A stretch of 64,000 nt of DNA. Source: Apricaphanius iberus. Taxonomy: Eukaryota; Chordata; Actinopteri; Cyprinodontiformes; Aphaniidae. The stretch lies in assembly GCA_028564705.1 (NCBI GenBank), contig JAPXFQ010001355.1, positions 1,054,001 to 1,118,000 of the forward strand, given 5' to 3'. The notes beneath the pieces are model-generated. The model did not search any database. It had not been told where the DNA came from and saw nothing but the letters and a program-made list of their open reading frames with translations. The position numbers were made by a program, and so were the translations under genes. Numbering within the stretch: position 1 is the first letter of the stretch; each line of letters opens with the position of its first letter. Positions 49,518 to 61,508 of this stretch are shown one piece after another.

Positions 49518-50285
49518 AGCTAAAAATTCATTGGTTTGGTTTCAAAAAACTGTAAGGATGAAAGAAAGGTAACATGCCTTGAATGATAAAACAAGAAGAC
49601 AAATAATACTTTTTAACTTTCTGAAAGAGAAACTGAATCTGACTCTATGGACTGATTTAGAAAATATTTATTCTGATATGAATCAGATTTTTCATTACAA
49701 TACTGATTATATTTGGAATAACCTAAAATGAATTCAGAATGCTTATCCGGAGTCGAGAGTGGTGTCCCAGTTTACATGTCACTCAGACAATTGAGTCACA
49801 CAGATAGTAAACAAATGCTAATGTCAGTGAGGCAGATGGAGTAAAAGCAGGATATGCACAATGAGCAAAGAAATGGACAGCGACAACCATGCAGCACAGC
49901 ACATTTTGTAAGTACTGCCCTGTTTGATTTTGTTACAGTCGTTGATGCTCTTTCTGTTGTTGGTATACCTGCTACTTGATGGCTAGGGCTTCCAAAAGCT
50001 CGGCTTCTAATGACTAGCCTTTACATGCAGAGAAATTTGATTTTCCGTTTGCATTAGTCCATTTTTCATTTGCTTTAGTCCGATTGCTCAAACTCCCGTT
50101 CCGTTCAACTTAAGTTGAGCTAAGGTTTGTAAATACATTTCAAAAGTCTGATTTCAGTCAGAGCAAGGCAGTAATTTGACTTTCTCTTGCTGCATGTAAA
50201 TGCACAGAGGATTGAGAAGAGTAGACGGGTACAGAGCAATGCAGCAAGATGGATGTTCAACAGGTTAGGGTGATTAATACGGTGG
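49518..50285. other. No feature recognised
   Basis: AT-rich spacer before the integrase-like element; CTTAAGTTGAGCTAAGG and nearby words gave no assignment. Confidence 0.3.
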
Positions 50286-50289
50286 CCTA

Positions 50290-50573
50290 GAAGTGTGAAA
50301 CAAAAATAAATTTTTACCGAAACAAAATTACATTTTTACGAAACACTTTTACATTTTTACCGGAACAAAATTAAATTTTTACCGAAACAAAATTACGTTT
50401 TTAGCGAAACAAAATTACATTTTTACTGAAACACTTTTACATTTTTACCGAAACAAAATTACATTTTTACCGAAACCCTTTTACATTTTTACCGAAACAA
50501 AATGACATTAACCTGAAACACTTTTACATTTTTACCGAAACACATTTACAAGTTTACCAAAACAATTTTACAA
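50290..50573 (+). repeat. Left TIR: about 12-13 subrepeats of 22 bp
   Basis: Units alternate between CAAAATTACATTTTTACCGA-type and CACTTTTACATTTTTACCGA-type, sharing ACATTTTTACCGAAAC. Most are 22 bp and a few are 21. The outermost and innermost units are the most diverged (TGTGAAACAAAAATAAAT; ACAAGTTTACCAAAAC). Confidence 0.92.
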
Positions 50574-50657
50574 AGACATGACACGGAAGTGATAATGCGG
50601 GGAACGGAATCAGTTGCCAAAGTTAACGCAATTTTGTTATCAGCTCAACTTGTGGAG

Positions 50658-51475
50658 ATGTTTTGCGGAATCTATATTCAAGTTTTAAGGACTTTTTGTG
50701 GTGATTGTGGACATAATTTGGACTTTCTCGCTGATGCAGAGGGAGAAGCTGTCGATTTTATGGACTGGCTCGTTAAGTATTTCAACGAAGGCCACGCATA
50801 CAATGTGATTGTTGACATGATGAAACGGCTTCACAGTGTCTGCCTGTCTTTGCGGACCGTGAAAACTAAATTAAATAATGCCGGATTCTACTAAACTATT
50901 CATCCGAACTAGACATCAGACATGCCATCAGACTGGATCTTCGTGGACAAGGGCTGCTGTTTGGGTACAGGGCAATGACTCAGGTGCTTAGGCAGAAGTA
51001 CAAACTTCGAGTGAGGAGAGACAATGTAATGAATCTTCTGCATGAGCTTATCCCTCGAAGTTGTGAGAGGAGGTCTAGGAGAAGATTTGATAGACGGACA
51101 TATCACTCTTTGGGAGCGAACTATATGTGGCATGCGGACGGCTATAATAAGCTGAAGCAGTTTGGCCTTGCCATTTCAGGTTGAATTGATTACTTTTCCA
51201 GGAAGGTTTTATGGCTCCAATGTGGATCTAGTAATAACAATCCAAAGGTCATCGCTTACAATTATCTGGAATGTGTGAGAAAGCTTGGTGTTGTTCCAAT
51301 GAGACTGCGGACTGATTGCGGTACAGAGAACGGTATCCTTGCTGCTATTCAAAGTACCCTGTGCGATTCTCACAGTGACTACTTCTCTGGAGCCTCCAGC
51401 TACATGTATGGGTCGTCAACTGCAAATCAACGCATCTAATCCTGGTGGTCCATCTTCAGAAAATCTAGGTAAATG
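50658..51475 (+). pseudogene. Integrase-like (DDE) transposase, inactivated
   Basis: From the ATG at 50658 the frame encodes a degraded zinc ribbon (TFCGDCG kept, first CxxC lost), then WLVKYFNEGHAYNVIVDMM and LSLRTVKTKLNNAGFY, a helix-turn-helix-like segment. A frameshift at about 50890 precedes LDLRGQGLLFGYRAM, VLRQKYKLRVRRDNVMNLL, RRRFDRRTYHSLGANYMWH, ADGYNKLKQFGLAISG, KVLWLQCGSSNNNPKVIAYN and RLRTDCGTENG. Catalytic candidates are Asp (codon 51137, WHAD), Asp (codon 51314, RTD) and a third acidic position now reading TAA (codon 51437, between NQRI and SWW). Another stop, TGA, is at 51182. A donor-like AG|GTAAAT follows near 51473, so a 3' exon may be missing or unrecognised. The domain layout is that of integrase-core proteins found in fish and invertebrate genomes. 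Confidence 0.82.
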
Positions 51476-51729
51476 GGCTATGTCAGTAGTGTACTCTGGT
51501 GTATTTTTCTTTGTTGGCAGGTATTACATTTGTTGGATAAATAAACCCTCTTAGTGATACCTATACTGTCCTGTAGGTCACAGTTCTGGATGGACTTATT
51601 TGCTGACCTCAGAGACACTGGACATTGTTTAATCATTATGTAGAGTGGTCCTGCATACTGTACATAACTTTAGCCACTTGCAAACACATTGTTTTCGAAA
51701 ATGCATCACTCACGTGGTTTAGCACATAC

Positions 51730-51852
51730 CCCCTGATTACTCGGTCCCACCATCTCCTCCTCAATGTCTTTTAGGACATGAAGGGACCGTCCACAAAACT
51801 CACAAAAAGTATTTTTTTTAATGAGCGAACTACCACAAAATGGGCAAAACAT
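51730..51852 (-). pseudogene. Zinc-ribbon exon in the right TIR
   Basis: On the minus strand, ATG at 51852 opens a 41-codon exon. It encodes MFCPFCGSSLIKKNTFCEFC (a CxxC-10-CxxC zinc ribbon) followed by GRSLHVLKDIEEE and VGPSNQG. It ends exactly at a consensus donor, GGGG|GTATGTGC; without splicing it would stop eight codons later. It is the better preserved counterpart of the start of the left transposase frame, and the sequence upstream of its ATG is the same as upstream of the left ATG. It therefore faces the left gene head-on from the opposite end. Confidence 0.8.
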
Positions 51853-51965
51853 CTCCACAGGTTGAGCTAATAAGATTGCGTTAACTTTGGCAACTGATAA
51901 GAAAAAAAAAAAAAAACTTTGGCAGCTGATTCGGTTCCCTGCATTATCACTTCCGGGTCATGCCT

Positions 51966-52222
51966 TTGTAAAAGTGTTTCGGTAAAAATGTAATTTTGTT
52001 TCGGCAAAAATGTAATTTTTGTTTCGGTAAAAATGTAATTTTGTTTCGGTAAAAATGTAAAAGTGTTTCGGTAAAAATGTAATTTTGTTTATGTAAAAAT
52101 GTAATTTTGTTTCGGTAAAAATGTAAAAGTGTTTTGGTAAAAATGTAATTTTGTTTCGGTAAAAATGTCCTTCATCAACATTTAATTATTTGTCTCATTA
52201 AAAATGTAATAATTTTTACAAC
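51966..52222 (-). repeat. Right TIR: about 9-10 subrepeats of 22 bp
   Basis: The inverse units read AATTTTGTTTCGGTAAAAAT and AAAAGTGTTTCGGTAAAAAT on the plus strand, the same two variants as on the left. Clear units end at about 52170. A degenerate continuation, ATTAAAAATGTAATAATTTT, at 52197-52217 may be the true outer edge. Confidence 0.92.
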
Positions 52223-52344
52223 TGGTTTCTCTTGTGGTGTTATGCACGTGGGTCAGGAAACTTAACAAGGCAGTTGTATCTGGAAGACAGCTATGGACCT
52301 CTAAAGGTCTGGTTGATCCTTGAGGTCTGGTTGATGCTTGGTTA

Positions 52345-52850
52345 AAACTTCCATATACCTGAAGGTGCCATGTTTATCTATTCAGTCCATTTTATGCAAA
52401 AAAAAAGGTTAGGCATGTCCTTCCATCAATATTACTCAAGAGTTACCTTTGAAGTTGCCCCTGAAGATGTGAGCACGGAAAATATAGACTAAGTTCAAAA
52501 AAGTTATTGAAATGAACAATAGGCCTAATCGTATTTTGTGGCTTAAGGACAACATAGTCAATGGTTTGGAGTGGCCATTTGCAAAGCCCATTTCAAAAGA
52601 GCTGAAGATAGCCAACAATCTGATTCTGTTACACATTCTCTGTTAGGAATGGACCAAAATTCCAGCAAACTATTGTGAAAGGATATCCAAAACGTTCAGC
52701 ATATGTCAAAGAGTTTAAATGACAATTTAACCAAATTCTTAAGAAATGTATGCAAACCTCTGACACAGTTAAAGAAAATGGTAAAAATGTTACCTATCAT
52801 TTTGGATTTTTATACAGTGTATGCAAATATGTAGGTTTACACTAAACTGA
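52345..52850 (+). pseudogene. Tc1-like transposase, internally deleted
   Basis: At 52362-52400 the text GAAGGTGCCATGTTTATCTA and TTCAGTCCATTTTATGCAA matches the N-terminal paired-like region of Tc1 transposases. From about 52530 it jumps to the C-terminal end: WLKDNIVNGLEWPFAKPIS, then EWTKIPANYC and RISKTFSICQRV. The DDE core between them is almost wholly missing. Stops and shifts are present. The tail GTATGCAAACCTCTGACAC is typical of the 3' end. Confidence 0.75.
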
Positions 52851-60657: not shown

Positions 60658-60714
60658 TATGGCATGCCGTTCAGGAAAATATTATATATTTATATTGATA
60701 TGTTGGAATATATG

Positions 60715-61508
60715 GAATGAACCTTGAATATATGGAAGGTAAATCTGAATATATTGAATGATAGTCTGAATATATTGATTGAACTTTGAATATATTGAAT
60801 GAACCTTGAATATATGGAATGAAAATCTGAATGTATTGAATGAAAGTCTGAATATATTGAATGAAGTTTGAATATATGGAATGAAAGTCTGAATATATGG
60901 AATGAAAGTCTGAATATATGGAATGAACCTTGAATATATGGAATGAAAGTCTGAATATATGGAATGAAGTTTGAATATATGGAATGAACCTTGAATATAT
61001 GGAATGAAAGTCTGAATATATGGAATGAAAGTCTGAATATATGGAATGAAGTTTGAATGTATGGAATGAACCTTGAATATATGGAATGAAAGTCTGAATA
61101 TATGGAATGAAGTTTGAATATATGGAATGAACCTTGAATATATGGAATGAAAGTCTGAATATATGGAATGAAAGTCTGAATATATGGAATGAAGTTTGAA
61201 TATATAGAATGAACCTTGAATATATGGAATGAAAGTCTGAATATATGGAATGAACCTTGAATATATGGAATGAAAGTCTGAATATATGGAATGAACCTTG
61301 AATATATGGAATGAAAGTCTGAATATATGGAATGAACCTTGAATATATGGAATGAACCTTGAATATATGGAATGAAAGTCTGAATATATGGAATGAAAGT
61401 ATGAATATATGGAATGAAGTTTGAATATATGGAATGAACCATGAATATATGGAATCAAAGTCTGAATATATGGAATGAAAGTCTGAATATATGGAATGAA
61501 GTTTGAAT
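60715..61508. repeat. Minisatellite, about 39 units of 20/21 bp in three variants
   Basis: All units share GAAT-GAA...TGAATATATG. They differ in the middle: A = GAATGAAAGTCTGAATATAT (21 bp with the next G), B = GAATGAACCTTGAATATATG (20 bp), C = GAATGAAGTTTGAATATATG (20 bp). The first seven units are diverged (TATATT for TATATG, plus point changes). From unit 12 on, the order is dominated by A-A-C-B and A-C-B blocks, with a B-A alternation in the middle. Two long minus-strand frames (258 and 250 codons, HSIYSDFHSIYSRF-type and SFHIFRLSFHIF-type) are by-products of stop-free units and show no sign of being genes. Confidence 0.95.

Follow-up and report, generated by a model that had tools for sequence, protein, structure and literature searches.

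Ordinary internally deleted non-autonomous DNA transposons share a deletion junction, keep their ends and are presumed to transpose in trans. According to the available parts of two papers (PMC10045372, PMC12730594), the IS3EU/GingerRoot superfamily of eukaryotic DNA transposons encodes a DDE transposase, and IS3EU elements have TAYGG..CCRTA or TA..TA ends and usually 6-bp duplications. The available text of PMC12730594 also describes fungal TET+ IS3EU elements, in which an alpha-kinase gene is oriented opposite to the transposase. The element analysed here lies in a window of 64,000 nucleotides (the whole stretch of DNA that was analysed, C808:1054001-1118000 of a 1.195-Gb assembly, on which the own-genome searches were also run). 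It resembles IS3EU in its TACGG..CCGTA termini, 6-bp target duplications, TIRs of more than 30 bp and integrase-type DDE transposase (rva_4), and it is placed with IS3EU based on the termini, the duplications and the rva_4 domain rather than on a Repbase transposase tree. It differs from IS3EU in two respects: its long inverted ends include ribbon coding sequence, and for its relatives a convergent gene of HECT type is predicted. Neither feature is mentioned in the available parts of PMC10045372 and PMC12730594. The element in the window is very probably a decayed copy of an internally deleted IS3EU-type family, the parent of which carried convergent transposase and ribbon-HECT genes.

The original prediction for this locus described inverted ends that each combine 22-bp repeat arrays, a shared leader and the start of a zinc-ribbon protein, an architecture that was confirmed, with corrections. 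Positions 50375-50624 match 51915-52166 in inverted orientation at 86.6% (blastn; 253-base alignment, E 9e-81), a likeness far above chance, and a second inverted match links 50609-50666 to 51844-51898 at 89.7% (blastn). The 22-bp arrays comprise 12.6 units at the left end (50297-50572) and 8.8 units at the right end (51975-52168). The leader is found on both strands and runs each time into an ATG, at 50658 on the plus strand and at 51852 on the minus strand. The features are, in order of position:

50278..50296, plus strand: left terminus, TAC + GGTGGCCTAGAAGTG.., diverged from TACGGTGGCCGGGAAGTGCAAATC, the end typical of the family
50297..50572, plus strand: left subterminal array of 22-bp units (12.6), inverted relative to the right array
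50573..50657, plus strand: left leader, common to the right end (blastn between the ends)
50658..51468, plus strand: remnant of transposase exon 1, aligned with relatives, with stops and frame breaks
51469..51576, plus strand: transposase intron, GT..AG, based on splice-site counts and on fish proteins that read on across it
51577..51632, plus strand: start of transposase exon 2, truncated by the family-wide internal deletion (junction ~51626-51634)
51708-51713, minus strand: candidate donor GTGAGT of the right ribbon exon, conserved among right ends
51714..51852, minus strand: right zinc-ribbon exon, MFCPFCG..CEFCGRS.., read as exon 1 of a deleted convergent HECT-type gene
51853..51966, minus strand: right leader, including a partial duplication and an A-run (plus strand)
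51967..52168, minus strand: right subterminal array of 22-bp units; beyond the array, the right TIR was not found

The remnant of exon 1 contains an N-terminal zinc ribbon from which one Cys pair is gone (MFCGIY where MFCPFCGIY is expected), a helical region and a DDE integrase core (rva_4). Between the ends, DNA similarity is high only to about codon 7 (MFCPFCG), and the two ribbons diverge beyond this point. The boundaries first proposed (50290..52222) required revision. The start lies at 50278 (TAC) or 50281 (GGTGGCC), and at the other side the array decays past 52168, and a search of the window copy did not find the right terminal TIR. The same locus is also present in C168 (L009), with flanks that are 98-99% identical but without 51911-52397, the break falling within A-runs; this version is probably a haplotype or a duplicate bearing a deletion. 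Elsewhere in the window (60706-61508), a 41-bp unit with a GAATATATGGAATGAA.. core forms a tandem array of 19.6 copies.

An own-genome DNA search with the element returned at least 347 matches (40 of 160 candidates scored). Forty sequences were compared, i.e. 39 fetched loci and the window, including the near-identical L013 and L014 as well as L009 from the window's own locus. Both termini are present in 22 of the 40, the window lying outside those 22, while, for the ribbon comparison, the substitution rates and the splice sites, the left end could be extracted from 36 sequences and the right end from 32. The family ends read TACGGTGGCCGGGAAGTGCAAATC.., with termini TACGG..CCGTA, and the end pattern (three positions free, one two-fold) has 84 matches in the genome, against 0 for a reversed-pattern control. 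The two-ended copies are flanked by 6-bp target duplications, which are perfect in 11/22, with one mismatch in 5/22, two in 3/22 and worse in 3/22; among 462 mismatched pairings taken as a control, none matched at 6/6 positions and five matched at 5/6. The TIRs exceed 30 bp, as left and right ends are inverse complements over at least 45 bp in many copies, in addition to the arrays and the leader. By a loose motif count, the copies differ widely in their number of 22-bp units, the extremes being the left arrays of L027 (4 units) and L011 (102 units).

Left and right ribbons occur together in 20 of the 22 two-ended copies, and a ribbon start at both ends is a trait of the family. The claim of a zinc-ribbon start at each end thus holds for the family, the left ribbon of the window itself having lost one Cys pair. 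An intact member in which just one end has a ribbon would have spoken against the original prediction, but none was found: among the two-ended copies, L034 is without the right ribbon and L041 without the left, both being internally deleted, and L038, where the right ribbon is absent, is a damaged copy.

The integrase-like nature of the element was borne out by a Pfam match to rva_4 (E 5.9e-22, in a 276-aa frame of copy L014) and by the residues D167, D226 and E267, which are invariant across 17 aligned sequences. The ribbon start in these 17 is exactly MFCPFCG in 9 and follows CP[FY]C[GA] in 15. Seven relatives of 409-424 aa were retrieved, and the closest named transposase relatives are fish proteins, which makes a ray-finned fish the probable host. 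At the intron, GGTAAA is present in 27/32 and TAGGT in 29/32 of the copies where the site was found, and the proteins of the fish relatives read continuously across it. A PDB sequence search with the fish transposase P0002 gave no match, and a scan of viral contigs with the same protein gave no relative. AlphaFold gave a poor model of P0002 (mean pLDDT 55.9), which was set aside.

The 3' end of the transposase is missing in the window, where exon 2 halts at ~51630 and is followed by right-end sequence. The same internal junction is crossed in 31/40 sequences by a strict test (33/40 by a looser test, in which L038 was wrongly counted in), from which it follows that one deletion founded the short family. 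Among the nine sequences that do not cross it, seven have no match at the junction, L039 matches only from 51618 on and L038 has its two sides apart. The latter is an older copy in which exon 2 runs on and ~1.16 kb separates the two sides of the junction. The ~1.9-kb form is a non-autonomous internal-deletion derivative. It is similar to ordinary internally deleted transposons in its shared deletion junction, its kept ends and its presumed mobility in trans, but differs from these in that the coding starts of both putative parental genes are retained.

With CpG sites excluded, codon positions 1/2/3 have accumulated substitutions at rates of 0.046/0.052/0.046 in the left ribbon and 0.059/0.065/0.064 in the right ribbon. 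Since the three positions decay equally, neither ribbon shows selection at the protein level since the burst. Rates are lower in the leaders (left, 0.024; right, 0.040) and higher in the stretch that follows the right exon (0.085), a pattern that fits ends kept for their DNA. These rates bear on the proposal that the right exon encodes a stand-alone zinc-ribbon protein, i.e. a regulator competing with the transposase for the ends. An open ribbon frame in many copies and the same leader at each end would agree with such a competitor, but the right ribbon shows no third-position excess and its retention is explained by descent from a single deletion. Moreover, the splice donor proposed for this exon, GTATGT, is limited to the window's locus, as it was found in 1/32 right ends (the window's own) and in L009, which belongs to the same locus and stands outside the 32. 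GTGAGT, starting 16 nt beyond GTATGT, is present in 24/32 right ends. The proposed donor was therefore not upheld, and a competing regulator is very unlikely.

The right and left ribbons are identical at 14/27 residues. Of 120 retrieved proteins, 22 start with M[FY]CPFC, and the right and left ribbons resemble the ribbons of these relatives to about the same degree (mean identity 13.6/27 for the right, 14.1/27 for the left). On these residue counts, the right ribbon is a distinct sequence rather than a copy of the left one. This matters for a further option in the original prediction, a fold-back fusion of two transposase copies with the right exon as the 5' end of the second transposase. The leader and the array are inverted copies as such a fusion would require, and a related family may include fusions of this kind (C338:356641-359036 and C1260:1108803-1111341, each with two convergent transposase matches and with ribbons outside them). 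However, the right ribbon is unlike the left and the DNA similarity of the ends stops after a few codons, the right ribbon accompanies the left one family-wide, and in the long members HECT-like sequence is found on the same strand as the far ribbon. Judged by the ribbon residues and the DNA comparison, the two halves are not copies of one gene, and the fold-back was rejected as highly improbable. What stood of this option is that the right exon is probably the 5' end of a second, deleted gene. Most plausibly, it was exon 1 of a putative convergent ribbon-HECT gene that was lost by deletion, since HECT-like sequence lies opposite the transposase and the far ribbons of relatives lie on the HECT strand.

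Of the family members that were located, C1366 is the longest, with 13.8 kb. Its left TIR lies at 395349, its right TIR at 409093-409116 (minus strand) and its right ribbon, 98% identical, at 408609-408731 (minus strand). From this order we infer that the two ends belong to one element, the interior of which was read up to 398700, ~10 kb short of the right end. In L046, the first 3.4 kb of C1366, the transposase is interrupted behind its N-terminal part. The minus strand of this stretch contains the frames ..DMLVKFSDDPGVSEEGLDMGGPRREFLSVLMK.. and ..EYYLAGKMIAVAVVHGGPDPHFLFKDLVNHL.., which we take to be the beginning of a HECT domain, of a type that is common in fish. The top PDB matches of the first frame are weak matches to HECT ligases (AREL1, E 0.067; Rsp5, E 0.54 to 0.63), besides one unrelated protein, and the sole PDB match of the second exon is an unrelated dehalogenase (E 0.017). 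Pfam gave no match for the isolated HECT-like exons, the window's own family showing N-lobe-like exons only, and a PDB sequence search with the HECT-like piece of L038 gave no match. The HECT identity of the C1366 exons is suggested by these weak PDB matches, by their motifs and by homologous loci at which Pfam detects a HECT C-lobe. A short inverted repeat adjoins the HECT-like piece of L038 (4249-4410), and one of its arms also matches eleven other places.

An own-genome search with the 127-aa exon of L046 gave C1697, C408, C103, C223 and C217 as the best five non-self matches, with C342 lower. At all six loci, PF00632 positions 212-305 (the C-lobe) are matched above the curated cut-off, and the match of the 127-aa exon lies past this C-lobe as viewed from the transposase. 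These six HECT-bearing relatives are described here from match positions. Among the matches listed, all transposase-HECT pairs within 15 kb (6/6, the six loci forming three groups) have the HECT match downstream of and convergent with the transposase; under uniform placement, 0.41 such pairs would be expected in any orientation. The test comprised all 134 HECT matches and 121 of 142 transposase matches, the 21 omitted being additional pieces of places already represented, from source lists in which 140 of 593 transposase candidates and 129 of 275 HECT candidates were scored. The spacing between transposase and HECT is constant within each group (1562/1562/1568, 2517/2519 and 908 bp).

In C1697, C103, C223, C217 and C408, the order is transposase, C-terminal exon(s), HECT C-lobe, HECT N-part and far ribbon, with the last three all on the strand opposite to the transposase. 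A far ribbon was looked for at C342 and was not found. The transposase C-terminal exon matches of C1697, C103 and C223 end ~248 bp before the HECT C-lobe match, and one in-frame TAA is present in the aligned transposase C-terminal stretch of each. The near-identity of these three loci suggests recent spread or duplication, possibly assembly duplication. Their far ribbons match the right ribbon weakly (37%, E 0.154; one genome); the far ribbon of C408 matches with E 0.07 and that of C217 better, with E 2.6e-5. Protein searches for a complete ribbon-HECT homologue (padded searches) found nothing. Several kb between ribbon and HECT sequence at the related loci, together with the weak matches of four of the five far ribbons, would be compatible with a HECT gene that is a separate passenger in the element, the far ribbon then heading a different small gene. 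Such a passenger is unlikely, as ribbon, HECT N-part and HECT C-lobe share one strand and keep a constant order at five loci from three groups.

Under the preferred reading, i.e. a parent with convergent transposase and ribbon-HECT genes, the left gene would encode a DDE transposase with a zinc-ribbon start and the right gene a predicted HECT-type E3 ubiquitin ligase, most likely with a related ribbon start. Its long inverted ends would span the arrays, the leader and, in each of the two genes, roughly the first seven codons. A single deletion would have taken the 3' end of the transposase and nearly all of the HECT gene, sparing the right ribbon exon, and the founder would then have been amplified, presumably in trans, with the right ribbon of the short copies as a relic. 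Ribbon and HECT exons may be spliced into one protein, the ribbon common to both proteins may bind the subterminal arrays, and the ligase may act at or near the ends or on the transposition complex. More tentatively, and with somewhat less than even confidence, we propose that transposase and E3 ligase share the end-encoded ribbon, so that the terminal repeats would both encode and, via the ribbon, recruit the two proteins. At the ends, the ligase would then modify the transpososome or else silencing factors or proteins of DNA repair. If both proteins do share this ribbon, it would offer a concrete and testable route for recruiting an enzyme to transposon ends.

The second gene on the strand opposite to the transposase, as predicted from the six pairs among the matches listed and from the C1366 exons, is reminiscent of the fungal TET+ IS3EU elements, with the difference that it is of HECT type here and an alpha-kinase gene there. 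An alpha-kinase was also considered as the second gene of the present elements and was rejected, PF02816 having 8 matches in the genome and none at the studied loci. No HECT gene in IS3EU was found in the literature searched, outside of which lay Repbase and most subscription papers, and with the convergent HECT-type second gene these elements appear to vary an otherwise known type of transposon. As a parallel to the fungal alpha-kinase, a convergent HECT ligase would suggest that the pairing of a transposase with an enzyme that modifies proteins is a recurrent theme in IS3EU.

HECT-like genes are abundant in fish genomes, and the presence of HECT sequences in transposons may bear on this abundance. 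Many other HECT matches in the present genome have no listed transposase match near them. Five of the places without a listed transposase nearby (C1323, C1803, C267, C927 and C1021) have identical HECT scores, with the N-part and the C-lobe ~2.5 kb apart, and these possibly represent another mobile HECT unit.
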